DNA of 64,000 nucleotides, from positions 5,469,473-5,533,472 of the forward strand of contig OX442424.1 in NCBI GenBank assembly GCA_949361645.1. Reading direction: 5' to 3'. Position 1 is the first letter of the stretch; the number at the start of each line of letters is the position of its first letter. This document shows positions 455 to 44,146 of this stretch, piece by piece. Origin of the DNA: Spongilla lacustris. Taxonomy: Eukaryota > Porifera > Demospongiae > Spongillida > Spongillidae. Position numbers and translations under genes: made by a program. The notes under the pieces are model-generated. The model was not told the DNA's origin, did not search any database, and worked only from the letters and a program-made list of their open reading frames with translations.

Positions 455-656
455 ATACCTACATCTATAAGTACATGTATACCAGACACGGCATGTGTGC
501 GTAATACATGTATAATAGAACGAATGTGCGCGGAGCTGTATTTGATTGATTTACGGACAATTACAAATGTGTACCATAACAACGTGCATGCCGTTGCCCT
601 GACGATATGGCGAGGCGTCCTTTTCATGCATATCGTTCCTTCTGGCTGCCGGCATT

Positions 657-1910
657 ATGCATCGTATTAAAAGAGCGCTCATTGCCCTGTGTAGAAGTGT
701 GGCATCGTGTGTACTTGGAACAAAGCGGCAACCTTCGGCGGCTTCGCATTCCAAGCGTCATGGCGGCATTGCTGATCGCACCTCGAAGCTTGCAACTGTG
801 GAGCAGAATTTGAGTACTTCAAGCGTAAGATCCCCGCATGGAAGTTATGTATTCAGTAGCTTGAACACACGTAAATATGTTTGCCATCAGATTTGCAGTG
901 GCGATAGTATCGAGCCAGTGCGAGGTCCCTAAAACATTCCCCATCAAGGCTTTCAAAGCATGAATTGTTTCTCGTGTTCCAAGAAAGGCTTCCGCCTATA
1001 GGAAAATCGAAATACAGTTCGCTTCTTTTGCTACATGTAAGGGAATTATGGACAGTAAACTACGGTGTACCATGTGATAATGTATATGTAGTTTAATAAC
1101 CCCAGTTTCTATACGTAGGATCTACACGTATCTTCTTCAAGGTCCACCTCTCTACCATCTGGCTTAAGTGATCGGCCTGTGCAACAGTATAGCAAAAAGC
1201 GTTACTTCACTCACAGAAGCCTGACCCCCACCACTATTGCAAGTCTTGATACACCACATGTGTCTTCAGTGATGTCTGATGTCCAGACCAGCAGCTCTAG
1301 GTACCAAGAAAAGATGGGGTGCAAGGGATGTGATAATAGTGTTTCCTCCATCTCCAGTAGTGATGCCTTCTCTTACCAAAAGACATCAGAGCTAAAGAAG
1401 AGCCTATGTGGATTGTACTTGGTGATGGCAGACTTTAATTTGCTGCCACTAATGAGTGCGACATCTCGGTGCATGTGGGTGAGCAAGTGACGGTATGGAA
1501 TCAAGACAATCGGCACTGGTTTTGGATCATGAGGCAAACAGCAGAGAATGAGGAAGGATTTGTTCCAAGCTGCTGTCTACATGAGATAGCCACCATATGC
1601 ACCAGTAAGTGGACAACAATCACTTACAGATACACACATGTACATATAAGCTTGTATGGAACTGACCTTGGATGAAATATGTAGTAATGGTGTGAGGTTG
1701 TACTTATGTGAGGAGGTGGGAGGTGGGGTGGGGTGATCTTTAGACTTAAGGAAGTGGATTGAGGTACAATATAATTCTTAAGTTGAAAGGTGAGATGAGA
1801 TTATCCTTACATCTATACATTCCATGCTTACTATACTCTTTTCCTCTCATCTTACTCAGAAACTGCTCTCCAGCCTCCACCTCCTGCTCAAAGAGTATGA
1901 TGGCTCAAGT
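657..1910 (+). pseudogene. SH3-domain protein gene, copy A, frameshifted and interrupted
   Basis: Three exons can be traced: 657-824 (ATG, 56 codons, donor GTAAGA, phase 0), 1119-1604 (acceptor at 1117-1118, donor GTAAGT) and 1860 onward. Exon 2 encodes a Ser/Thr-rich linker followed by an SH3 domain (GLYLVMADF start, HWFWIM tryptophan strand, GFVPSCCL end). Compared with copy B, exon 2 has five extra bases (AATTT, about 1437-1441), which shift the frame inside the SH3 domain. Exon 3 has one extra base and is cut at 1910 by a transposon. Exon 1 is open here, whereas it has a stop in B. I read this as a decayed paralogue; what the protein bound is unknown. SH3 domains bind proline-rich peptides. 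Confidence 0.75.
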
Positions 1911-3746
1911 CGAGGGGGGGGCAAAAAAAAAAGTTATAGACACCATCCCAAAAATTCTTAAAACCAAGGGCCAGGTCAACCCCCCCCCCCCCCCCCTCCG
2001 CCTTCGACCACGCCCATTTTTCGACCACGCCCCTTAAAATAATTACGTAATCGACAATTGACCACACCTGCAGTTAAGATAATATTACAAATTGAAAGCA
2101 GGCTTCGTTGCAGATTGCTGCTGTAGGTGTTGTCACTTCGTCGCTTGCAGCTGGAGACGCTGTTTCACTTGTACCATAGAATTTCGTGATACTCAGTCTC
2201 TCGTGCCATGACGTAATGCACAGGCTGTAGGCCTATCGAATATTACATCCCTGCCCATCAATTAAGGTTTGTGGTACTCCAACAAGATTTTGAAGAACGG
2301 CACGCATTATCGTTCATGACTCGGTAAAGTACTCGTTTAAACAATAGCAGGCGGGGCATGCTCGAGTGAGGCGTGACCTCATGCATGTTACTTAGTACCA
2401 GGTGTATCCGTGGCTTACTTAGTAGCGTCATAGATATTTAAGTAAGGGGATTGGAAACGGATCAATGAATCTAATTAGTCACGTACAGTCCATGTTACGC
2501 CTACAATTAAAAATTCATATCGTACGCAGCAGCTGTTTTGGACTATAGGGACCGAGACGTCAGGATCACAGGTTCACATCGTTGCGAGTGGTATATGGAC
2601 AAGCAAAGCCTGGTACCCAAAGCCTTTGTTTTCCAGTCATACTTTCTTCTACACACTCGTAATGTCTTATACCCATTGCTTAAAAAATAATCAAAAATCG
2701 ATAAATGCTTCTCTCCTTAGCTTCGTTACCTCTCCTAAGGCGATACGGTTAAAGGGAAAATGACAGCCAATAGGCACGTAGCACACTGTGCACATCTATA
2801 ATATGCAACGTTTAGCGCGCCAGCACCTGTAGAATCGTAGAAAAAGGTACAGTGCCAAAGTAACTCCATTTACGCTTCTTACGTACTAGAATGGAGGTTG
2901 CGAAGTAAAGAACAGTCCGCCGTGCACAAAATTAAGGAAAGGCATACAGATATGACCTACCAACGACATAGTAGTAACAGAATCGCGCTGAGATGAACTG
3001 GTCAAAAATAAAAGGTACAGTCCGTAACCGAGTCGCGTAAGGTACTAGAAAATCGCGTTCAGCAAGCAAACAATAAGAGCAAAGAGCCGTGCCAGTTAAA
3101 GAATGGCTTACAGACACGTAGGAAGATGTAATATGACGTTTTAGGACGAAAACAAATCACACAGTAGCAGCAGTTTTCAAGTCTTCATTGGTTTAAGGGT
3201 AATAATAACCGTGTCAAGGAGTGTACGTGTACAATCATGCGCTCACGTGATGCGTTTCCAATCCCCTTACTTTAATATCTATGGTAGCGTTATTATAGTT
3301 TTTATCTTTACATTGCTTTGCGACGCTTCAATTGTTGCACTATTGGTTAGTGAATTGGTATGAAGGCCACGCCCACGAATTGTGTCTCAGTCACGTGATA
3401 ATATGCTTTCCACAATGAAATAGCTTACAATCGCACTAGATAGGCAGTTAAGCCATATCTTTGCACGAATTGGACACCCATGAACACTACAAACAATATG
3501 ATTCCATCATTATGTTGCTGTAGTGCGAGCTAAAGTTCCAAAAAAAAAATTAAGAAAAGTGATGAATTTTTTTTTTTTTTTTTTTTGGCCAAGACCCCCC
3601 CCCCCCCCCCCCCCCTAACTTTGATACCTCATAACTTTTTTCCCTAGACCCCCCTGAAAAAAAGAATAGCATATTCGTGATGCTCTCAATGAGCTCTTCA
3701 AAGTTGGGGGATGGTGTCTTCCACTTTGTTTTTTGCCCCCCCCTCG
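1911..3746. mobile_element. hAT-like non-autonomous DNA transposon with 8-bp target duplication
   Basis: Inverted ends start CGAGGGGGGGGC on both sides and continue for about 40 bp with few mismatches (left about 1911-1950, right about 3706-3746). The flanks are an 8-bp direct repeat, GCTCAAGT, at 1903-1910 and 3747-3754. Copy B has the same exon sequence with a single GCTCAAGT and no element (about 50008-50020), so this is an insertion after duplication or a clean loss in B. There is no long ORF; poly-C and poly-T runs lie near both ends. An 8-bp duplication fits the hAT superfamily (also P elements). About 970 bp remain once the nested element at 2429-3284 is removed. Confidence 0.8.
2429..3284. 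mobile_element. Nested MITE-like element inside the hAT-like transposon
   Basis: Inverted ends begin CATAGATATT and run into AGTAAGGGGATTGGAAACG on the left (2429-2465) and its complement on the right (about 3250-3284). They are flanked by the direct repeat TAGCGT at 2423-2428 and 3285-3290. About 856 bp, with no convincing ORF. It inserted into the outer element, so it is the younger of the two. The superfamily is not clear from a 6-bp duplication. Confidence 0.7.
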
Positions 3747-4579
3747 GCTCAAGTACTCAAAAATCCAGCCCACTTTCCAGTCCAACTACCATTTCAGCAA
3801 ACCACTGACTGGGATAGACATGCCAGTGTGAATTGATCACCTGCTCCATGTCCTTGTCTAGTTATGAGAAGTACTTTAGTATATGTTAGTAGTGTGCCAA
3901 TATTTGTATAAACTATAATATATGTAAATTGAATGCATAAGTGTATTAAATGTTTAATTAGCTGTACATTTCATTGCAAGTGGTACTGTCCTTTGCTTGT
4001 CCTGCAAATACAATTGCAAACAAATAGGTGCACAACATTACAAAAACTGCTCCAGTGACATGCACATGTACATGTATAGCCCATCAATACTATTTTAATA
4101 GTGCAGTGCTACACAACCTGAATTCTAGTACAATACCGGGCCATTCTAAGGTATCATGCAGCATGCAGCTCATACAAAGCTTCATGCTGATGGGGAGCAA
4201 GATGGATGACGGAAACAGGTGTGAGAAAATACATGCATGAGGTATGGTCTAAGCATCATGCATTGTCCTTGCATGCTGATAAAGTGAAAGCGTAAAAAAA
4301 TTAGATTGCAGAATTTCAAAAATATCTGTGAGAAGAAAGCATTATAGAATACAATAAAGCTACCCACACAACATGCACAGCTAACCTGTACCACATGAGA
4401 CATTAATGAAAATAACACAGTTTCATTCTGCAATATGAACTTGTATTGTGCAATATAAACGTGCATTGACAGACATGCCCAAACGCGCAAAAAACCAAAC
4501 ATAAAGATGACGTCGATCGAAACACAAGAAACAAGAAAAATGTTTCATTACTGTATGCAGAAGGGACATCATAATCCTT

Positions 4580-7500
4580 TCATCCTCTGGATATTTTAAT
4601 GATCACTGCTACAAGTAGAGAGAGAAAAGACCAAGTGATATGTGAGTGTCCCCATGTGCCCATGTGAGTGTGTACCCATGTGTGTGCCCATGTAGGTGTG
4701 TAGCCATGTGAGTGTGCTCATGTGAGTGCCCATGTGTGTGTGCCCATGTGTGTGTGCCCATGTGTGTGTGCCCATGTGTGTACCCATGTGAGTGTGCCCA
4801 TGTGTGTACCCATGTGAGTGTGCCCATGTGTGTACCCATGTGAGTGTGTACCCATGTGAGTGTGCCCATGTGTGTACCCATGTGAGTGTGCCCATGTGTG
4901 TACCCATGTGTGTGCCCATGTGTGCACCCATGTGAGTGTGCCCATGTGCGTACCCATGTGAGTGTGCCCATGTGTGCACCCATGTGAGTGTGCCCACGTG
5001 TGTACCCATGTGAGTGTGCCCATGTGTGTACCCATGTGAGTGTGCCCATGTGTGTACCCATGTGAGTGTGCCCATATGTGTACCCATGTGAGCGTGCCCA
5101 TGTGTGTACCCATGTGAGTGTGCCCATGTGTGTACCCATGTGAGTGTGCCCATGTGTGTACCCATGTGAGTGTGCCCATGTGTGTACCCATGTGAGTGTG
5201 CCCATGTGTGTACCCATGTGAGTGTGCCCATGTGTGTACCCATGTGAGTGTGCCCATGTGTGTACCCATGTGAGTGTGCCCATGTTTGTACCCATGTGAG
5301 TGTGCCCATGTTGGTACCCATGTGAGTGTGCCATGTGAGTGTAATAAATAGAGGTACTGTACACTTGTACATGTAGCAGTGTACACGAGAAATATTATAT
5401 GCAGCAATCTATGTGTACATGTACATGTACATGTAGATGTACACTGATTATTTACACTACATCATAGTTACATGTACTAGAACATACCAATGATGATGAT
5501 GAGTATGATGATTACAATGACAGCAATAACCAACTTCCACTACAGAACAAGAGTGTGTGAGGTGAGTAGCAAGTGTGCACATGTGACAGTGCATGTGTGT
5601 GCATGTGAAATGTGGGCATGCAATCAAGTTGTATGCAGGAAGAAAAACAAAACCATGATACAAAAGACACAGGTCGGCCCAATGTGACTTGCCTTGCACT
5701 GCTGCCACCACAGCTTGTGCTGAAGTCGTCTTGAACTGTGTCTGAACCTAGTGGCACTGTCAGCCAGCTCCCCTGTATGTAGGAGGTACAGGCATACATA
5801 AATGGACAAGTCCCCTCACTGGACCATCCCACCAATCAGATCACTGACAGGTGAAATGTAGTACATGTGCAGTGTACAAATTAACATTGATTTGATACAA
5901 GCAATCAATAATAATTGCTCTCTCCCATGCTTAGCTATAACACCCAGCCCCCCCCCCCCCCCCCACCCCTCCCTCCTAACACTGAGACCAACTCCAGTTA
6001 CCCAGGTCAAAGTTAAATGGTTAGGTCATGCAGGAGGGGTAGATGCCCAAAGGGTGGCACCTGCCATTGATGTACACATATGACCACAATGCAACTGGTC
6101 AGTCAATGCATACAAATTATATTGATTGCAATTGATTGCAGCCCACCTACGTGTACAAGTATGTGTGGACCGCACCATATCTTTTAGGAGACAGCTGAGT
6201 GTGAATGAAGGTGTGGCTTTTCCCAGACCTTAGGCTCAATTATGTGCTCTCATTCACCAAAACATTAAACCAATTTTAGCACTTACACTGTAACCCACAT
6301 AGTAAGAGTGCAAACCCAAATTCATTGCATGAACAAAAATATCAAGCAAAAGCAAACATCAAAATTTCTTCCTGGACTCATATGTATAAGTATTTGAAAC
6401 CTCTGGTAGCCTATCACCATCTAGGCCACTGACTTAAGCATGCAAGTATCCAGAGATATCAGTTCACTTCTATTGCCTCCTTGCTTTAAAGGCTCTCTGT
6501 GCTGCACAACAAGGAATTGAAGCACCAACTAAATTAATATTTTTCATACCATGTGTGAGTATGTGTGTGTGTGTGTGTGTGTGTGTGCGTATATGTATGT
6601 GATTGTGTGTGTGCATGTGTTGTGTGCACAAATGGATCCAGTTTTTTCTAAGCAATTTACAACACCATTATACATGTACATTTTATGGTTGTGGTGTTTG
6701 GTTTCTGAACTTATTCTAAAATGAATTGTAAGATGTTGTGGACTAAAATAGATCACCTCATAAGTCTGGGGACCAGATGACTGGCATTCAGCAGTCAGTC
6801 TGGCCAAGGGTACATGTACATGTACACATGGCCAGTGTATATGCCAAACTTCTGCTGGTTATTGATTTGGATTGTTTATATAAAATTCATCTTGCTATGA
6901 ATACAATTATAGTCTGAGTAGTCTGGGGACCAGATGGATGGCATTGCTAGAGTGCAAAAAAAGTCATAGATTGCCCAAACCATGTCATAAAACAATGCAA
7001 GTACTGAATGCCCTCATTTCATGTAAATGTAACGGACTAACCTGATGGAGAAGTGTTAACTACCCTAAAGGTGTCGATTGATCACGTGCATGTCATGCCT
7101 CTAGAACATTCTGTGATATATATAAGTTACTATACTTGATACATAGGTGTGCTTGTACTGCCATTTTTATGATAAAAGGACAACCTGTTACATTGGCGTA
7201 GTCAGCAGGATGGCTAGCCGACCTCTGATCGTGCCTGAGGTATTCTGCGGCGATGGCAGTTGGGGACAATGGATCTATCATTTTGAGAGCGTAGCGAAAA
7301 TCAACAAATGGGACGATGACCACAAACTGCAGTGGATCACCTATGCAAATGGTGGCTGTTGACATCCTTGGTCCACTGCCACGGACATCAGCTGGAAATA
7401 GATATGTCCTTGTGGCCGGAGACTATTTCACTAAGTGGATTGAAGCATACCCAATTCCAAACCAGGAAGCTGTAACAGTGGCACAGAAGCTGCTAGATGA

Positions 7501-10500
7501 GATGTTCTGCCGCTTCTCCTTACCTGAAAGACTACACTCGGATCAGGGAAGGCAGTTTGAAGCAGACATAATCAAGCAGTTGTGCCAACTCCTACAGTTT
7601 GAAAAGACAAGGACCACTCCATACCATCCCCAGTCGGATGGCTTCATTGAGAGATTTAACAGGACTCTCTTGAATATGCTCAGCACCTGTTTAGATCACC
7701 ACAATTCTGATTGGGATATGTATGTGAGCAAAGTCTGTATGGCATACAATTCAAGCGTACAAAGCACGACAGGCTACTCCCCCTTTTACCTCATGTTTGG
7801 CAGGGATGCTCGGTTGCCAACTGACATCATTCACGAGCCCCCCCAGTGCATTGCTGACATTCCTACGCAACAGTTGTACGGGCAGTATGTTGTGAATCAG
7901 CAAGAAAAGTTTCTTAAAGCCTTTGAGGCTGTGCGGAAGAGTATCTCTACTAAACAATGCCATCAGAAGCAGCTGTACAACCAGAAAGTGCATGGGGACC
8001 CTTACAGACCAGGGGACCTTGTGTGGTTATACAACCCAGCAGTTGCAAAAGGCAAATCAAGAAAACTTCACAGGCCTTGGAAAGGACCTTACCAGGTCCA
8101 TGCAAAACTATCGGATGTGAATTATAGAATTCAGCACACAGGTAACAACAAATTCACAGTTGTCCATTTTGATCGGCTAAAGCATTGCCCCCCAAACATC
8201 CGATTACCAGGAAAGGTGCACCCCCCTGCACCTGAAAAGAGGTCAGTGGACTTAACACCCCCAGGGACGTCCCTAGAACTGGTGGAAAATGAAGATGGGC
8301 TGGACCCTCAAGATGGTGATGATACAGCTGATCCCCCTGCCCCAGCAAACCCCCCCTGCTGATGATGAGCGGCGGTATCCACAACGTGCAAGACGGCCTC
8401 CAGATCGATATTAAGTAGAATAAATCCGGGACGTATTCTTTGAGGAAGGGGGCATATGTAACGGACTAACCTGATGGAGAAGTGTTAACTACCCTAAAGG
8501 TGTCGATTGATCACGTGCATGTCATGCATTCTGTGATATATATAAGTTACTATACTTGATACATAGGTGTGCTTGTACTGCCATTTTTATGATAAAAGGA
8601 CAACCTGTTACATAAACTTTGAAGCCGACATGTATTTTGCATTAGTATGGAGTATACTAGAACATGTAATAATTTAATTTACATCATGTATGAATGCAAT
8701 GCGTTATTCAAATCCATGATCAATTGAACCTAATCAGTACAATTAGCATAAAATACTGCGTGTGAGTTATAATATACTTAGAGAATCAGAACATAATCAT
8801 AATATGAAACACACAAAACACACACAAACAACTACATACGCGAATAACTGTCCTGTTGGGTTGATTGGGGGTAGGAGCGGACCAAGATTGATCGAGCATT
8901 AGCTCTAATCAATAACAGGCTGAGGCGGCCATATAGCTCAGCTACCACCTTAGACTTGGGGGTGTTACCACAAATGGCTAACCGTGAAGCCACCTGCGAG
9001 AAGGCCTTTAATGCCTCTGGTCCCCAGGCCCCATATTTCTCCACTGCCAATGGTACACATCGCCAACCCAACTCAGCACACTTGAGATCATTTTTGTTGT
9101 TTTCTGTGCTCAGCTGTCTTTGCTGAAAACCCTGGTACATGCCCGCTTTCAGCATAGTGTGTGAATTAAGCAGTGATGCAACGTAATGTCAAAGGCAGCC
9201 TAGGTGCCACAATCAGACTAAACAATATTATAGAGGATTTGACTTTTCACTGATTTTATAACCACAATTATACATAGCAAAATAGTTAAAATTAGAAAGT
9301 GGGGAGATTTGTACTTGGCGATAATAGTAGTAAATATTTTAAAGCTTTTTTGGGAAAAATAATTTGGTATTTATATTTCTGATTATAATATACCAGTACA
9401 GACATTATATTATTACATTTATCTTTTTATATATTCACTGTAATCTTAGTTCTCTCCAAGTCTGGACCTCAGTACATGTACTATGTGGCCCTCTACACAC
9501 CCAAACATATATTCTCCGGCCTTTCTGCATATATTCTAAATTCAAAATTGCTAGTGTTATTGGAGATTAATGTCTCTACAAATGACATACATAACCAAAA
9601 GGTTAAGTATACCGGGTGTCCACAAATGAACGTAATTAACCATTTTAATTTTTACATACATTACAGTAGTTGGGCAAACACTATAAATTCAATTAGGTTT
9701 AAATAAATTCTAAGCATGCAGTTAAGAAATTATATCAAAACTCTCATAAATCAAAGTATTCAAAACCCTCGATTATCAAAATTATTCAATATTAAGGTTA
9801 GAGATAATTGATTTAATAACCACTAATAAGTAATGCAAGATCTGAATATGCAGTGGAATAGCATTGATTTCAAGTTACGGAGTTCAATAGTAGGCTATTA
9901 TCTTTTAAGACCATAATTCACTTATAAGTTGTTAACTTGGTTGAAGTTGCTAAAGTATAATCACCACCACTAATTAGGGAATTATTAAATGAAGTAGGAA
10001 ACACCTTTCTTTTTGGTATTGAATCATGCAGTGGTCAGTTATTAAAACTCAAAGTTCATTGAAATTGTAGTGGCCTTTTAGCATTTTCAAGTTTTATTAT
10101 TTGTTTTGAATATTAACTACTGAAACGCCAATGAAACTGCCTGCAGTTTCTAAATGGTGTGTTGAAATGTACATGTACATGTACATGTGGCTCACGCCAA
10201 ATGATAGCACATGTTGCAAGAAACATTCTGTGCTGATATGGTAGATGTTAAAAAAATCTCTACATGTATATGTACGCATTAAAGTTATTAGCCGTTAATA
10301 AAACTATTTGTATTTATACATATACATTGTAAATATACATGTACACATGTAGGTGTGTAACCACATACACAAACACATCGTGTGATAGCTACATGTAGCT
10401 GTGTGTGCATGTTTAGTATTAAAAACTTTCATACCCAAGGCTCCATATGACTCAACAACTGATGGAACACATACCAATCCTATCATCATTGTTGCTGTGC

Positions 10501-13787: not shown

Positions 13788-14351
13788 CTGACAAAGGACA
13801 AGGACAGAGACGATCAGCTGGTAATGATGGCATCAGGTGACCCCACCCATGCACATATATGAAAGTATGCAATGTGTGTACATGCACGTGATTAATGCGT
13901 ACAAGCATAGATATATATGGTACATGTACACAATGTACATACATAATGTATGGATTGCACATACACATGCATGTACATGTATGTATATGTGTATGTACAT
14001 ATACACACACACACATGTATGCATACATGTACATGTGTATACCCCTGATGAGAACACTTTTAGGTGGATGAAAACTACACCTTCCCAAGTATTATTTCCT
14101 TCCCTCAAATTCATCTGACACTGTTTTCCTAGAGCAAGTTTCAGTTCTACATGTGTGTACACATGTGTACACATGAACATGTATATATATGTACACATGT
14201 ATAATTATATAAGTGCACATGCATGTACATGTATATATAAGTACACTACTACTTTAACCATTGAGCTGCACAGTGTGTTGATATTTGATGGCTTATAGCA
14301 TTGTGAGGGGTCGAAAAATAAATAATTACATACATGTATTACAGTCTGTAC

Positions 14352-16747
14352 CTGAAGAACCTTATGGATGTGATTCCCCACAAATACCCCACCAACGTAT
14401 TCTTGGCGTTACACCTTAAATGACTGTAAGGCTGCACCCAGACCATTAACAAATGGTCCATCATGTCTGTCAAAACCCTTATCCATGGCTTTTGTGGTTT
14501 TTGCTATTTCACTTTCCTGTATGTGTTTTTAGAGTGCATGTAGCCATTGTGAAACATGTATTCAAATCATTACCATTGTACTTGCAACTTTCCTTTTCTC
14601 CTCAACTTGTTTCATCATGTCTGGCGATGGACGCGTTCTCACCCAAAACAGCTACATATGTAAGCAGCTCCTCCAATGTTGCCAGCTCGTCCCTGACCTC
14701 TGCATAACATGCCTTCATAAGCTGCAGCTGCTGCAATTCTGCACAATAAGCTGAAAAGCTGGATGTGCTAGACGTTGGTTTGGTAACAAAGGCCATCTGC
14801 AGGTCGAAGTCATGGCAAGAATCTTCATGAAGATCCCTTGGGTTACATGAAGTCCAGGTATGCATACCTGTCAGTAATAAATACAGAAGACACACTTGTA
14901 TATCACTTCTTGCATGTACATAAACTTACATGTGATATGGGGATATAAAAAGTAGCTCTGCAATGCAATTCCCATGTTCCATTGCACTTCTGCGCACACC
15001 TCCAGCAGCCATAAAGGATCTGTAGTTAGCTCTGATGGTTTCCAATGTTCTTTCTGGAAAGGCTCCTCTTGTGCTTCGTGCAACTTGCATGTGATCATTA
15101 TCTATTTCGCACAGTGGACAAGGGTGCTTCCCTGTACAAATAACAAACTGACTTTACCATGCCAGTGTAATAGCGCTAAATGCAAGAATAATGCATGCAT
15201 ACCTGATGCACCAGATAGGCCATATACATCCTCCCCAATAATTCACAATAACTCACAATCACCACATAGGAACACAATTAGTGTGTATTGCCTGCATGGG
15301 TGTTGAAGATATAATGTTAAGCAATATAAGCCATATGTACCTCCACTTCATTCCTTGTAGCTGCCGGACTTGGGCTTTGAAGCGATCCAAAGCAATTTGC
15401 AAGTTGACAACTGTGTCAGCTGCTTCGAAACAACTGAATACACAGGTATTATATACAGAGTTTGGTGCAGGGACATTGATGATTTGAAAATTCATTTTGG
15501 TTGTGTTCAGCACATCTCCACCCTTTACACCTCCTAGCTTCACCCATATCTAAGTTTCAGGGATGAATCCATTGTGCCAGGTTAATCTCCCAATGCTGCT
15601 CACAGATGCACACCTCGCAACATCATTGGAATGTATAAGGTGTGCAGTTTACCTGTAATTTTCTTCCAAAAGTTGAATGACTTTCTGGACCAGATTTGGC
15701 ATATAGATGTGTGGTCTCGCTCTAATTTCCTCTCCACCAGAATGAAGGGAAAATGACATTGGGGCATTTTTTTCCTTTTAGCTCATCCCTGCCAGATATC
15801 TGATCAGCCACCTGCCTCATTTTCTCTTCACATGCGATGGAGATGCCTGAGGCCTTTAACCATCTACTGAAAGTGAGCCACACCTTTAATGGACAAATAT
15901 AGTAATTTTACCCTTTAAATTAATAATTACAAAAAACATATTATAACATTTCACCTACAGTATGTGCATCACCTTCGAAGAATTCGCAGTTGTGTCCAAG
16001 GTATTCCCAGGCCGGCTTTGATCGCCAATGCCTGTTTTGGACTGATATAAGAGACAACACCAGCCTGCTGTAGTAATGCCTGTCTTTCTGCATCATCGAG
16101 GTATTCCACCTCATTTTGGAGCAGATCAGAGGGTTCCCCCATGCTGACAAGTTCTCTAAGACTTTGTAACTCTCTGCACCTCCTTTTGAGTGTCCTTGAG
16201 CTGGCCACATGTGTGGGAGTACGTCCCTGTGTTACCTGCATGAATGTTCTAGGCTAAAGAAGGGATGGAATGTCAGTGTGATGTAGAACATCATGGTTGG
16301 GTCGGCAATGTGGTGGTACAATGCCTTTAATGCAGGCAATAATGCTGTTAGTTACTGTTGGCCGACCTCTTGGATGTGCTTGTGTATGCTTGACACCTCT
16401 CTTGGGTGGACAGATCTGGGTGAAACATAGTACACTTTTCATGCACATACTGTACATGTAAGCCTTTAGCATACCACACATCCTTCATCAGTATGTGCCT
16501 CCCATTGGTATATGTTTGTGGAGCTGTAATACGTGGTACATCTGTCCATCACCCGTTTGCAAAATAAGCAAAACAATAGAGGGTGGATCACCGGTAGATC
16601 ATTGGTAATGTCAATGTGGAAGACACTATTTAGGCGTTCAGATAAGTCTGTGCACTTATATGATGGCCTCTTTCTCTTTTCTTTAGCCACCAAAAGGCTT
16701 CCACATAATCTACAGCGTTGCTGAAGCTTCGCAACGTGCTGATCCAT
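14352..16747 (-). pseudogene. RAG1-like (N-RAG plus core-like) multi-exon gene relic
   Basis: Nine exons were traced on the minus strand: 16475-16747, 16356-16415, 15973-16235, 15653-15866, 15341-15595, 15203-15291, 14930-15131, 14643-14867 and 14352-14423. The first seven join with matching phases once the lesions below are set aside. Exon 1 has the RAG1 N-terminal cysteine pattern: CRLCG, FHIDI, IHPLLFC with a second C-x2-C, then W-x2-HT before CVIC. Exons 5-7 read RLTWHNGFIPE, KLGGVKGGDV, VFLCGDCELL, YGLSGASGKHPCPLC and VARSTRGAFPERTL. The GD and the CPLC fit RAG1's second catalytic Asp and its Zn-binding C-x2-C. The first Asp of the family appears as Val (GGV). Exon 8 has VCIPGLHVTQGIF; exon 9 has FVGNHIHK. 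Lesions: an A7-run frameshift in exon 4, TAG at 15550-15552, TGA in exon 6, a frameshift at exon 8 and TAA in exon 9. The third catalytic residue and the 3' part are missing. The RAG1 N-terminal match is firm; the core match is inferred from memory of motifs. Confidence 0.7.
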
Positions 16748-17372
16748 TCAAAACTGTGACCGAACTGTACCAAACTATGCCGATTATTCATAAAAAACAC
16801 ATTCGTGATTTGTATGTTGAAAGAAAAAATGTGGCATGTCCTAAACCATGTGTTCGCCTATTGGCATGCGTGTTCTCAATAATAATGCGTACTGACCTTC
16901 TCGGGAATTTGGCTGGCGTCCACCTGATTAGTTTGAAGTGACCCCCTTCCCTACGGCTATGGTGTTAAAGTAGGATGCGCACTTAAAGGAAACGCAATCA
17001 ATGCTTGCGCACATCGGATACTCTTAGCTACGATAAGCATTTTGATGAAATAACTGTGTTTCGATTCTACGAAGAATGGATATAGCTCGCTCCAAAAGTA
17101 GCATTTATAATGAGGTGTGGATTACACTTCCAAAACCATTTACGGTATCGTTCTAATTATAACCTAGTGTCCAGCCTCAAACAACAGTGACGGGCTCACT
17201 TCCTATACTGATTTTCATCTACATATGTCAATGAACAACTACCCAAGTGGACGCATCCCAATTCAACAATAAGTCGTTATTTTGCAAATACCATTCCCCC
17301 CATCCCCCTACTACAGTGGCAAAATGCCTGACACAATAGTTTAATTAACTCCACCACTAGATAACTAATCAT

Positions 17373-18048: not shown

Positions 18049-19492
18049 TTACACGTGACATGACTTAAAATGATAATCCAAACTGTTCTTGTACAGGTAA
18101 GACTTGGTACATTCACTGTGGCTGCACCTAAATCTCTCTCCAGTATGAATTCTGCAGTGGGCCTTCAATGCACATGAGCTTGTGAATGATCTTTTACAGA
18201 AACATCTGTAAATCCTCTCTGCAGTATGAGTGAGCATGTGTGTTTTTAGAGTTGACTGTCGTGAAAATGCCTTTCCACAACATTCACACTGATGTGGCTT
18301 CTCTCCGGTATGAGTGAGCATGTGATTTTTCAGATGTGACTGTAATGAAAATGCCTTTCCACAATGTTCACACTGATGTGGCTTCTCACCAGTATGAGTG
18401 AGCATGTGCGTTTTCAGAGTTGACTGTACTGAAAATGCCTTTCCACAAAGTTGACACATATGTGGCTTCTCTCCAGTATGAGTGAGCATGTGCATTTTCA
18501 GAGTTGACTGTTGTGAAAATTGTTTTCCACAATGTTCACACTGATGTGGCTTCTCACCAGTATGAGTGAGAATGTGCCTTTTCAGATTTGACTGTAGTGA
18601 AAATGCTTTTCCACAATGTTCACACTGATGTGGCTTCTCACCAGTATGAGTGAGCATGTGCGTTTTCAGAGTTGACTGTACTGAAAATGCCTTTCCACAA
18701 AGTTGACACATATGTGGCTTCTCTCCAGTATGAGTGAGCATGTGTTTACTAAAAGCTGACCTAACAGAAAATTGTTTTCCACAATGTTCACACTGATGTG
18801 TCTTCTGTCCAATATGAGTGAGCATGTGTTTTTTCAGATATGACTGTTGTGAAAATGCTTTTCCACAATGTTCACACTGAAGAGTCTTCTGTCCAGTATG
18901 AGTGAGAATGTGTTTTTTCAGATTTGACTTTTGTGAAAATGCTTTTCCACAATGTTCACACTGATGTGGCTTCTCACCAGTATGAGTGAGCATGTGCGTT
19001 TTTAGAGCTGACTGTACTGAAAATGCCTTTCCACAAAGTTGACACATATGTGGCTTCTCTCCAGTATGAGTGAGCATGTGTTTACTAAAAGTTGACCTAA
19101 CAGAAAATTGTTTTCCACAATGTTCACACTGATGTGTCTTCTGTCCAGTATGAGTGAGCATGTGTTTTTTCAGATTTGACTGTTGTGAAAATGCCTTTCC
19201 ACAATTGTTCACACTGATGTGGTTTCTCACCAGTATGAGTGAGCATGTGTCTTTTCAGATTTGACAGTTGTGAAAATGCCTTTCCACAAAGTTCACACTG
19301 ATGTGGCTTCTCTCCAGTATGAGTGAGCATGTGCGTTTTCAGAGTTGACTGTACTGAAAATGCCTTTCCACAAAGTTCACATTGATGTGGCTTCTCTCCA
19401 GTATGAGTGAACATGTGCGTTTTCAGAGTTGACTGTTTTGAAAATTCCTTCCCGCAATGTTCACATTGATGTAATTGCCATCCTGAAGCCAT
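18049..19492 (-). CDS. Tandem C2H2 zinc-finger protein gene with one frameshift
   Basis: The minus strand encodes about 17 C2H2 fingers of the form CEHCGKAFSxQSxLKxHMLTH joined by TGEKP or TGQKT linkers, an 84-bp unit. The best start is ATG at 19492 (MASGWQLHQCEHCGK), just after a possible 3' splice site (TCAGTCTGCAG), so an upstream exon may exist. Three fingers are read first. An extra T at about 19205 (ACAATTG where other units have ACAATG) breaks finger 4, and the other frame carries the remaining 13. The last two fingers are unusual (CFC start; FRCSHSECTKSYLYK) before the stop at 18049. Such arrays usually bind DNA. No KRAB, BTB or SCAN partner domain is visible. The indel may be real, allelic or a sequencing error. 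Confidence 0.85.
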
Positions 19493-38876: not shown

Positions 38877-41800
38877 TCAGTACCCAAATCTCACTGGTGC
38901 ATGCCTGTCTCTGGTAGGGTATCTTTTCTCTGTTTGTGGCGTAGGCTCCTCGAAGTGGTCTATTCCTGGTGGCTCCCATGACTGTGCACTGCGGATTGCT
39001 GGTGTGGCTGGAGGGGGCATGGTTCCTGGCTGGGAGTTGATTGCTGGCTGGATTTGTTGATGAAGACGGTTGGTGTGCACTATTTTTGTGCGTACTCCAT
39101 CAGAAATCTCCACCGTGACTGGTGATTTCACACTCCTTATTATCCAGTTCCCCTCCCATCGCGGATCTAGTTTGCCTGCTGTAGGCACTGATAACCACAC
39201 CGGGTCCCCAGCCTTGAAGTGTCTCTCTTCAGACTGTCTGTCATAGTGCACTTTCTGCCTGTGTGCAGACTCAGTGATGTGGGCCTCCACAAGGTCCTGT
39301 AACTCAGCCATCTTTGCCTGCAGTACTGCCTGGTAGGATGTGGCTTCATATCCTCCAACGGGGGTAACGATATTTGGCTATGCCTTCCATACATCAGCTG
39401 GAATGGGGACACTCCAGTGGAGGTGTGTGTAGCAGTTCTGTATGCATACAGAGCCAGTGGTAGATGTTGTTCCCAATCTTCCTGTCTCTCCACATAGGTT
39501 CTCAGCAGCTGCAACAATGAGCGGTTGAACCTCTCAACCATTCCATCACCCTGTGGGTGATAGGGTGTGGTGCGGCTTTTCTTTACCCCGAAGGCCTCCA
39601 ATGTGCTCTGGACAATGCTGCTTTCGAAGTTTCGACCCTGGTCAGAGTGAACGATTTCTGGGACACCGTATGTACAGAACAGCTTAACCAGTTCTGCTGT
39701 GATTCTTATGGCTGTCTGGTCTGGAAGTGGTCTGGCATCTACCCATTTGGTGAAGTAGTCCTGTATAACAAGAAGATACCTGTTGTTCTTGGTGGACACA
39801 GGTACTTCTAGGATGTCAATCGCAATCATCTGCCATGGTCGTCCAATAGGAATGTTTGTGAGGGGTGACCTCACTGGCATTGGTAGTTTGGACTTCTGGC
39901 ATGTGATGCATTACCTGCAGTGTCTGTCCACATCTTGGGCCATGTTCACCCAGTATGCCTCCCGTCGTATCCTTTCCAACGTCTTCTGTGTCCCCTGATG
40001 GCCTGCTGCCGGGGAGTCATGGCACATGCTCAGGGCCTTCTGGTGCAGTGTTTCTGGCAACAAGGGGACCACAACGGTGTCAGATGTAGGGCCTGGCTGG
40101 TACTTCCTGCACACAATACCATCCACTGTAACAAGCTGTGACCAGAGCTGGGCATATCGTCTCATTGGTGGTCGTTTCCAATTTCTGAGTGGAGGGTGTT
40201 GCTTGGACTGGAGTGCACTGTACAGTTGCTGGATTGTGTCCTCCTGTTTCTGTGCTTGCCTGATCTCTTCTGCTGTGAAGCCAGAATACACTGTGGTCAA
40301 GGCTGCATGGAGTGTTTCACTTTCTGGTTCTCTCCTTCGTGACAGTGCATCCGCATTTCCATTGGCTGTTCCCTTCCTGTACACTATCTCCAAGCTGAAT
40401 TCCTGTATTGCCAGAGCCCAACGACACAGGAGGCCCTCCATTTTCTGTTCAGCGAGCCATTGCAGGGGGGCATGGTCCGTCATTAGCTGGAAAGTACGTC
40501 CCAGCAGGTAGTGGCGGAACTGTTTCATGGCCCACACAATTGCTAAGCACTCACGTTGGATCACGCTTTAGTTGGCCTCTGCTTTGGTGAGTGTGCGACT
40601 GGCATAGCCAATCACTCGCTGATCTTGCTCCAGGACAGCCCCCAGCCCTACAATGCTAGCATCTGTCTGTAGTACCATAGTGCTGGCCTGCTTGCCGAAC
40701 GATGGGTATGCCAAGACTGGTGCTTCTGTCAGGCACGCCTTCAGCCTCTGGAATGACTCCTCGCTCTCCTTTGTCCATTGGAAGGGAGTGTCCTTCTGAG
40801 TCAGCTGGTATAGGGGGGCTGCCATGTCAGCAAACTTATCGATGTACTTGCGGTAGTATGAAGCGAGTCCAAGGAATTGCCGCACCTATGCTTCATCCTT
40901 TGGCTGGGGCCAGTTTACCACCGCGTCCACCTTGCTGCTATCTGGTGACATTCCTTCCCTGGAAAAGGTGTGTCCCAGGTACGTTACCTGTGCCATCCCG
41001 ATCTGACACTTGCTTCCTCTGAGGGTCAGTCCTGCCTCTCTCAAGCGTTGGAATGTTTGCTCCAAGTGGCTCTTGTGCAGCTCCTCATTTGCTGAGTGGA
41101 TCAGGACATCATCGATGTAGGTGGTGACAAATGGCAGTCCCCACATCACCACGTCCATGAGTCTCTGGAATGTGCTGGGTGCCCCACACAATCCAAAGGG
41201 CATCCTTGTGAACTGGAACAACCCCATTCCAGGACCAGGCGAGAATGCTGTCTTCTCTTGGTCCTTTGGGTCCACTGGTACTTGCCAGTACCCACACTGG
41301 AGGTCCAACTTGCTGAAGACAGTTGCCCCTGATAAACGATCCTGGACTTCTTCAATTAGAGGAAGTGGGTAGGCATCTTTTCTTGTCCTCTTGTTTACCT
41401 CTTGGTAGTCCACACACAGCCGGATTTCTCCCGTCTTCTTCCTGGTGTAGACAGCAGGTGCTAGCCATGAGCTGCTGCTTTCCACAATGATCCCTTTCTT
41501 CAGCATATCGTTTATCTGCTCCTGAACTTCTTGCTGGAAGTGTGCTGGTATCCTCCTGGGTGGGACTCTTGCCGGAGACCCCACAGTGTCAATCTGGTGA
41601 CAGGCCAACTTGGTAAGCCCAGGGGTCTTGACAAATCGGTCTCTTGCCTGTCGAATTGTCTCTTCAAAGCAAGGCTTGATAAATCCTGGAAGTTCAGCAT
41701 CTGCCAACTCCTTGAAAACCGGTATTACACACTCGTCCACCTCATCTGGAACTGGGACTTCCAAGGATGCCACAATGCACACCTTTTCTCTCCTCTCTCT

Positions 41801-42960
41801 TTCCGCTTTCCAAATTGCCTGCAGTGCTTCTGGTTCTGGTAATGGTGCTGGTCCAGGTGCTGTACTCACAGGTGTCGGCCTTTTCTGCCTAGCAACGGTG
41901 ACTGACACGGGCGAGGTAGTGAAGTCGAGTACCAACCCTTGTTGTTGCAGAAAATCAACCCCAAGGATGACTTGTGAGATGAGCTGTTCGACCACGATGA
42001 AACTATGCTCCGGTACCTCTTTGATGCCGCTTAACTTCACTGACGCCTTGACGTGGTTCACAACAGGGGCGGATACAGGAAATCTGGAAGGGGGGGGGTC
42101 CGACATGAATAATCAATAGGGGGAGGGTGCGGGAGGGGGATGTGCCCCCTCCCGCGCGAAGCGCGGAAGCTTTTGGGGTTCCCGCTCTTGGCGACACAGA
42201 CTATCTATCAAGCCTTTTAAACTGGGGCGAAAGACTAAAAAATGGCGGCAAAAATGGTTGGGGGGGGGGGAGGGGGGGAGTGTGGTATTTATCCGCATTT
42301 CACATTTGATTGAACTAATGGTTGTTGTCCGTTTTGGGCTCGATACAAGAAGTGGCCTGTGTGATAACTGGTCAGTGGGACTATAGAAGACCCATAAACT
42401 TAAAAATACAGTCTGTAGTTTATGGTGAATACCGGGCATAACGAGATAACGCGATCGGGCGTGTGCGTGATTCCTGTACGCGTAGGCCTAAATCTTTTAG
42501 CGCATTACATAATTACCTTTTGCTTTCTTGGAAAAGTAACTCAAGATACTTGCCGAATGAGGTGAGTGAACAGATTGTTTGCCATCTGGACGATACGCTA
42601 TATCACGTGGGATGTTGTTAATTGCATTCATTAATGGTATTGATACTTAATTTTATTCATCATCGGGTCTGAGGGGGGGGTCCGGACACCACCGACCCCC
42701 CCCCCCCCCCCTGTATCCGCCACTGCACAATGGTGATCTCCTCGTCGCCTGCCGAAACCAACCTTAGCTTTGGCGTATCATCCGGGCTAGTCGTTCCGTT
42801 GAAGCGTTTGGCGATGTCGTGCCTGATGAGCGATACTGAAGAACCGGAGTCCAACATCACCTCCACCATCATCCCTCCCACCAGTCCATTCACCACGGAG
42901 ACGCCGCTTCTGATGGAAGCGACGAACGCTGCTTCAAGTGGGCTCACTGGCGCGCAGGGT
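38877..42960 (-). pseudogene. Gypsy pol: protease, RT, RNase H, integrase (broken)
   Basis: In order: protease with MLDSGSSVSLI (near 42830) and ILGVDFLQQQG (near 41960); RT with LCVDYQEVNKRT, MPFGLCGAPSTFQRL and the TYIDDVLIHS catalytic box (near 41100); RNase H with LQTDASIVGLGAVL and an LMTDHAPLQW segment; integrase with IAIDILEVP, VHSDQGRNFE and DGMVERFNRSL; and a C-terminal chromatin-facing tail ending RHAPVRFGY. In-frame stops lie at 40886-40888, 40568-40570 and 39911-39913, and a frameshift at about 39350. A transposon at 42064-42725 splits the protease end; the frames on its two sides agree. Not functional as it stands. Confidence 0.93.
42064..42725. mobile_element. Small hAT5-like DNA transposon nested in Gypsy pol
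   Basis: 16-bp inverted ends, CAGGGGCGGATACAGG and inward CAGTGGCGGATACAGG (one mismatch), are flanked by the 5-bp direct repeat CACAA (42059-42063, 42726-42730). No ORF; G- and C-runs sit inside both ends. Leaving out the element and one CACAA leaves the pol frame uninterrupted. CAGNGGCGG ends are common in hAT elements, and a 5-bp duplication fits the hAT5 group rather than the usual 8 bp. Confidence 0.88.
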
Positions 42961-42967
42961 GTCTGTA

Positions 42968-43743
42968 TTAGCCCTCTGCAGACACCCCTCTGGAGTTTTC
43001 CGGATACTGCTCGCGATTTGTAGGTAGATTTCGGCAATTTCGACGGATGTGACCCACTTTCCAATCCCACAGTAGTAACAACGTACAGGCCGTGCGGCGC
43101 GTGGGGTACCATCCTGTTTTCTTTGTTGTAGCGCGCTCAGTGCTGCAACCTGCTCTGTCAAAGCTGCTACTTGCTCCGACAGCTTCTCTACGACTGCGTT
43201 TGTCGGGTTGCTAGGAGACGCTACTGCTTCGGCCTGCTGTTCGTTCTCGATCTCCAGGGCGGTCAACAGTTTCGCGCGCTCTACGGTCGACCGCAAGTCA
43301 GTGGTGTTTCCCGTTGCCCGTAGCTGCTTGCTGATTGCCGAGGGAAGGCCCGCCACGAACTGATGCAGCAAGAGTTGCTCCTTGGCGGTAGAGTCGAGCC
43401 GGGGCATGGCTTGCTCCAGCAGCTGCTTTAGATCATGCAGGAACACTGGCAGCGCTTCGCCGGGGACCATTTTTCTCTGCCGAAACCTCTCCATGGTACT
43501 AAAACTCGTTGATGTCATCGCTGCCAGTAGCTCCTTTTTTGTCTTCGCATAGGTCTTCTTCACTTCGGTGCTGAGTTCCAGCCATGCTGCGAGCGCTTCA
43601 CCTTCTAGCAGCGTAGGGAGTTTCAATACCTTTGTGTCGTCGTCCCATTTGTTTGCGTCGCTACAAATATCGAAACGCACGAACCATTCGTGGATGTTGC
43701 CCGACGCAAACGGTTTGGGCAGACTGACATGGACATTAGCCAT
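42968..43743 (-). pseudogene. Gypsy gag (frameshifted in the zinc knuckle)
   Basis: The start is ATG 43743 (MANVHVSLPKPFASGN), just inside the 5' LTR and primer site. About 240 residues follow with the gag core (EWFVRFDICSDANKWDDD, KLPTLLEGEALAAWL) and a coiled-coil (EQVAALTEQVAAL). The nucleic-acid-binding knuckle begins CYYCG; five bases that do not fit (near 43055) then throw the frame, and GHIRRNC continues in another frame to a TAA at 42968-42970. Pol follows in a third frame, as expected if the element uses frameshifting. Confidence 0.85.
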
Positions 43744-44146
43744 TCCGCTCTCTGCTACCAATATAGCGCGTACGCTCCCAGTCACAAGTAACAGCTCAGC
43801 GACAAGAATGACTCTTCACAGAACACGCATGATATATATAGACTATTGGTACTATTATTTCTAGATCTTTCTAGTGTGTGTGCATGTCATGTGCCTGCTT
43901 AACACCCAAGGTGTAGAGTAGCTGGCACTACATGTGCATGTGCATGTGTGTGTGCATGTGTGTGTGCATGTGCATATATGTGTGCATGTGCATGTGTGCA
44001 TGTGTTTACAGTTGTTTATGTGCATCTGCATATGTGTGTGCATGTGTGTGTATGTGTGTGCATGTGTGTGTATGTGTGTGCATGTGTGTGTGCCCATGTG
44101 AGTGTGCCCATGTGTGTGTCCATGTGAGTGTGCCCATGTGAGCTCA

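Follow-up and report, generated by a model that had tools for sequence, protein, structure and literature searches.

The 64,000-bp stretch of the genome of the freshwater sponge Spongilla lacustris analyzed here (contig OX442424.1, positions 5,469,473 to 5,533,472; hereafter the window) carries a damaged transposon on its minus strand, from 17189 to approximately 14247, which we take, with a probability of about 0.9, to be a Chapaev-type DNA transposon of the cut-and-paste class that is now dead. Open members of the family encode one transposase with a RAG1-like layout, namely, a Chapa zinc domain, a RING domain, a probable NBD-like region, and an RNase H-fold DDE core, and they encode no RAG2 partner. 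The relic itself is a Chapaev copy, a known kind of element; its novelty lies in the sponge host and, chiefly, in ends with 12/23-type spacing. An earlier note, made from the sequence alone, had described the locus as a decayed RAG1-like gene of at least nine minus-strand exons. Its central observation, an N-terminal RAG1 region joined to a RAG1-like catalytic core outside vertebrates, was borne out, and its RAG1-like (RAGL/ProtoRAG) identity is replaced here by Chapaev. The parts of the relic are as follows.

17162 to 17189, minus strand: 5′ transposon end (CAC box, 17189-17183; 12-bp spacer, 17182-17171; inner 9-mer, 17170-17162)
16475 to 16747, minus strand: exon 1, RAG1 N-terminal (Chapa) domain (PF12560, 44.5 bits; RAG1 in the PDB, E 6.5e-5)
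16288 to 16415, minus strand: exon 2, 5′ part (linker), with the RING part deleted (junction, 16287-16283)
15973 to 16253, minus strand: exon 3, NBD-like region and start of the core, by position (at least 135 genomic matches)
15653 to 15863, minus strand: exon 4, frame broken (tblastn with P0012)
15341 to 15595, minus strand: exon 5, with a Val codon at the first acidic position (15528-15526) and a TAG (15552-15550) (PF06918, 33.7 bits)
15203 to 15291, minus strand: exon 6, with the second acidic Asp (15260-15258), a TGA (15245-15243), and four extra residues
14930 to 15131, minus strand: exon 7, C-x2-C (Cys codons, 15120-15118 and 15111-15109)
14574 to 14867, minus strand: exon 8, frame broken (tblastn with P0012)
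14352 to 14516, minus strand: exon 9, with a TAA (14411-14409)
14247 to 14291, minus strand: exon 10 fragment

Exon 1, where the earlier note had placed the RAG1 N-terminal pattern, matched Pfam RAG1_imp_bd (PF12560) well above the cut-off of 23.3 bits, and exon 5 matched DUF1280 (PF06918; cut-off 25 bits). When the sponge relative P0012 was used in a tblastn search against the window, exons 4-8 were matched with an E value of 2e-70, and the similarity is therefore not due to chance. The exons have GT..AG junctions and matching phases in agreement with the open relatives, although exon 2 is cut by the deletion. Exons 1-9 were thus correctly placed by the earlier note, including the end of exon 9 at 14352, and a piece of a tenth exon was added; the start of the feature had to be moved to the transposon end, 442 bp before exon 1, and exon 2 proved to have lost its RING part relative to the copies L002 and L003, both of which still contain it. 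The CAC start at 17189 is also the exact position at which homology to L002 and L003 begins, with differing flanks. The first 60 bp of the relic agree with the mobile derivative L031 at 55 positions, and the two elements are 80% identical over the longest stretch that aligns, of 721 columns. Only the 5′ transposon end is present in the window copy.

The Gly-Gly-Val, Gly-Asp, and C-x2-C motifs described in the earlier note are all present, as is the damage: Val occupies the first acidic position, exons 5, 6, and 9 contain one stop each, and exons 4 and 8 are broken in frame. C-x2-C stands four residues farther from the second Asp, and the resulting distance of 23 is real but particular to this copy; the distance is exactly 19, the figure quoted earlier for RAG1, in 29 of 53 proteins returned, many of the others being partial gene models, and also in the open copies L014 and L018. 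The last exon, bearing H-x4-H and the catalytic Glu, was not found at the window relic because everything beyond the exon 10 fragment is lost. With its first Asp replaced by Val, its frame broken, and its RING part and final exon gone, the relic is unable to make a transposase now.

To describe the family, exon searches were run on the 248.6-Mb genome (51 contigs). Genomic matches numbered at least 150 for exon 1, at least 135 for exon 3, at least 138 for exon 5, and at least 133 for exons 6-7, where in each case 150 candidates were scored, out of 831, 264, 156, and 161, respectively. The family has more than 100 copies, which is a lower bound, since some few matches are fragments of a single copy and many of the candidates went unscored. 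Twenty 10-kb stretches were fetched, and five copy groups have common elements of 4.3 to 4.9 kb at 96% identity or higher. Open gene models were obtained from three copies (946, 927, and 1166 amino acids; the introns of the 1166-residue model are doubtful); the gene in open copies has 11 exons. Among five sister copies onto which models were lifted over, L012 had no stop but a 1-base deletion, and the others had 1, 4, 13, and 29 stops, so that three of the eight copies examined were fully open; intact relatives, foreseen in the earlier note, do exist in this genome. Among named proteins, the nearest to an open copy comes from Ephydatia muelleri (96% identity over 48% of the query). In the subfamily of L023 (and L024), the second exon measures 1.1 kb, and a long Ser/Pro-rich region follows its RING. 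L029-L038, together with L039-L041, are internally deleted derivatives of the window subfamily; L031 and L032 match L030 at 99.8% of positions along some 2.1 kb, and this identity, with their 4-bp duplications, indicates that the three moved recently.

The open copies and their relatives display a DDE triad with C-x2-C and H-x4-H between the second Asp and Glu. Chapa is followed by RING in family members, and the RING was clear in a profile search; in the G000 copies and Antedon, it was below the cut-off or unseen in single-sequence Pfam searches but clear by profile. In the passages of the literature that we cover, to which all statements on published systems refer, C(2)C and H(3-4)H, lying between the second D and the E of a DDE triad, are shared motifs and part of the definition of Chapaev (PMC12730594), the Chapa domain occurs in Chapaev and TransibSU and RING in two Chapaev subgroups, and Chapaev elements that combine Chapa, RING, and core are already published (PMC4411706).

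The choice of Chapaev over RAGL/ProtoRAG rests on the core domain, the target-site duplications, and the size of the element. Two open copies matched DUF1280 (54.7 and 51.4 bits), which represents Chapaev transposases and groups with RAG1 (PMC3985635). By contrast, the Pfam RAG1 core PF12940 gave no match with the L018 and L014 proteins (E up to 1) or with seven relatives (E up to 0.1). Thirteen copies entered the end test, and 12 were scored after L009, whose 5′ end was not found, was dropped; the ends are CAC..GTG, and a 4-bp duplication was detected in 10 of the 12 and a 5-bp duplication in none. Duplications of 4 bp were also seen in five of five further elements, namely, L027, L028, and three derivatives with deletions (L030, L031, and L032). 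Chapaev has duplications of 3 to 4 bp and CAC/GTG ends (PMC4079192), whereas RAGL duplications are 5 bp (PMC7204232). In the 4.3-kb element L018, the gene spans 460-3818 of 4327 bp and leaves less than 1 kb, in which RAG2L would not fit. Genome searches with PF12940 and with PF03089 (for RAG2L) returned no matches, but the positive controls were equally silent. That the locus is a relic of a true RAGL/ProtoRAG transposon or gene is therefore very unlikely, even though the RAG1 N-terminal domain, the RING in relatives, and the RAG1-like core fold all fit it; an identity to RAG1 of 13-14% in the structural alignments also compares poorly with the >30% quoted for TransibSU (PMC4411706).

Structure prediction, which covered two relatives and not the relic, gave a core of the RAG1-type fold, with 12-14% core identity in structural alignments with RAG1 and RAGL/ProtoRAG. 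A RAG1 match outside the N-terminal domain, which the earlier note implied, thus holds for predicted structure and fails by sequence profile, where none was significant. This lack of significance would suit an independent fusion of a RAG1-type Chapa-RING module to an unrelated DDE transposase, an explanation that we consider improbable. Transib was tried as an identity and rejected, given the RAG1 N-terminal region of the family and its lack of 5-bp duplications. Nor does a host gene that was domesticated and then lost, as the position of a spliced gene between a delta-aminolevulinic acid dehydratase exon and a synaptobrevin exon might suggest, have any appreciable credibility against more than 100 copies, transposon ends, target duplications, and near-identical recent copies. 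Weighing against the Chapaev assignment with a RAG1-like core are the nonsignificant sequence profile result, the near tie between RAG1 and Transib as fold matches of the core, and the lack of a matching 4-bp duplication in L012 and L021 and of any target duplication in subfamily H.

The ends of the family are unequal. Within this one host genome, the 5′ end was set against the reverse-complemented 3′ end for each of 10 subfamilies of our own grouping. Ten-mers agreed best at position 17-18 when offset by 11 bp, with a mean of 8.3 of 10 bases compared with a maximum of 5.0 in 300 shuffled 3′ ends, and this offset was best or tied best in nine of the 10 subfamilies (ties, C and G). A spacing-blind search of 12 pairs of pieces, with ends picked by terminal match and target duplication, found convincing ends in four pairs (V, O, K, and G; K and G were already among the ten), all at offset 11, with G tied; subfamily H had a terminal match, and the other seven pairs had no convincing ends. 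Altogether, offset 11 was found in 11 of the 12 subfamilies having both ends and a duplication, and in all 11 the 5′ gap is short and the 3′ gap is long. Counted between the 10-bp end and the inner box, these gaps are 8 and 19 bp, or 7 and 18 bp in G. End-like pairs in 263,829 bp (loci plus window) numbered 14 at gap 8, 16 at gap 19, and 10 at other gaps, compared with three in shuffled sequence, one of them at gap 19; this is not a genome count because the loci were fetched for the family. In pairwise comparisons between subfamilies, identity at the 5′ end reached 0.85 for the terminal box and 0.79 for the inner box, against 0.44 for the spacer and 0.45 for the sequence farther in (G omitted); at the 3′ end, the terminal and inner boxes stood at 0.83 and 0.75, the spacer at 0.52, and the sequence farther in at 0.28 (D and G omitted). 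At the 3′ ends of D and E (L021 and L023), a near-palindrome around TGCATTGA lies within the long spacer that separates the CAC box from the inner box.

With the first 7 bp counted as a heptamer and the start of the inner box set at its A, spacer lengths come to 12 bp (5′) and 23 bp (3′) in 10 of 12 subfamilies, with 12/22 in D and 11/22 in G. In this chosen frame, the geometry resembles that of the V(D)J recombination signal sequence (RSS), which likewise has a terminal CAC heptamer, an inner 9-mer, and spacers of 12 and 23 bp. L030 and L031, derivatives of the window subfamily, have CACAGTA at both ends, sharing six of seven bases with the RSS heptamer CACAGTG; other subfamilies share four to five. 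By analogy, the transposase would cut at CAC, its NBD-like part would read the inner box, and it would pair one short-spacer (12-type) end with one long-spacer (23-type) end, as RAG does with a 12RSS and a 23RSS; the function of the asymmetry is inferred.

Our tentative view, held at a little under even odds, is that the sponge Chapaev elements are a RAG2-free transposon line in which the RAG1 layout is combined with ends of 12/23 geometry. Several observations count against it. The inner box lies at offset 10 in D, C and G were ties in the blind 10-mer test, and H gave offset 13 tied with 1. The 12/23 framing was picked after the data had been seen, and exact 12/23 spacing depends on it; the 11-bp difference does not. 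The inner box agrees with the RSS nonamer at only three to six of nine positions, and the subfamilies are not independent, since they share ancestry. It is a real, if less favored, possibility that the unequal ends are a mere inherited 11-bp difference without a role in pairing and that the inner box is a promoter or host-factor site, as common ancestry and a partly conserved CATTGAA tract in many 3′ spacers would allow. Such inheritance accords less well with a box at both ends, with spacer bases that diverge while box and spacing stay fixed, and with subfamily G, which has lost one bp from both gaps (7 and 18) and kept the 11-bp difference.

Compared with known systems, the sponge family shares with Chapaev (CMC/CMCT group) the DUF1280 core, CAC..GTG ends, 4-bp duplications, and Chapa followed by RING as in two subgroups, and it differs in its host and in its 12/23-type unequal two-part ends. 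One Transib family may have unequal ends. No mention of unequal Chapaev ends was found in the passages covered, which are those of the papers cited here. With RAG1 and RAGL/ProtoRAG, the family shares the domain order (Chapa, RING, probable NBD, DDE core), the predicted core fold, and two-part unequal ends, but it has no RAG2, its duplications are 4 bp rather than 5 bp, and its core identity is low. ProtoRAG spacers are 27/31 bp, with unlike ends preferred, as against 12/23 in our chosen frame, and most Transib ends are symmetric (PMC8289069); invertebrate RAGL has been proposed to be relatively insensitive to end asymmetry (PMC7204232). Transib, with 5-bp duplications, is further described without the RAG1 N-terminal region (PMC8355894, PMC4411706), unlike the sponge family. 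N-RAG-TP of Aplysia likewise has RAG1 N-terminal-like sequence within a transposon but is composed entirely of that part (PMC8355894), whereas the sponge open copies have the core too.

The window also contains other features. Host exons lie on either side of the relic on the minus strand, at 17508-17365 (delta-aminolevulinic acid dehydratase, 42.5 bits) and 13813-13679 (synaptobrevin, 43.6 bits). A short minus-strand fragment at 35308-35231, about 18-19 kb from the 5′ end of the relic, resembles this transposase at its C terminus (46% over 26 amino acids, E 0.001). By eye, a 401-residue open reading frame of C2H2 zinc fingers was recognized at 18049-19254 (minus), and open reading frames resembling Gypsy-type gag, reverse transcriptase, and integrase at 38877-43815 (minus) and 7295-8362 (plus).

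The relic itself is ordinary; its family is not. The origin of the RAG1 N-terminal region and that of the 12/23 asymmetry in recombination signals are open questions, and if a sponge transposon that lacks RAG2 has the RAG1 layout, recent copies that are nearly identical, and ends spaced 12/23, then such features are possible without RAG2. The family fits an early joining of Chapa, RING, and core (PMC4411706) better than a later event in which an N-RAG-TP-like element fused with a Transib (PMC8355894). No age for the RAGL line follows from it; that line may be as old, given that a unicellular alga is reported to have RAG1 and RAG2 homologs in linkage and that a bacterial Transib ancestor is reported (PMC9435367). 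If our view of the ends is true, unequal two-part signals that a RAG1-type NBD reads can be paired without RAG2; such pairing either is independent of the RAGL/Transib line, which it may predate, or evolved twice because of one structural constraint. In both cases, the 12/23 rule could be tested in a setting other than V(D)J recombination.
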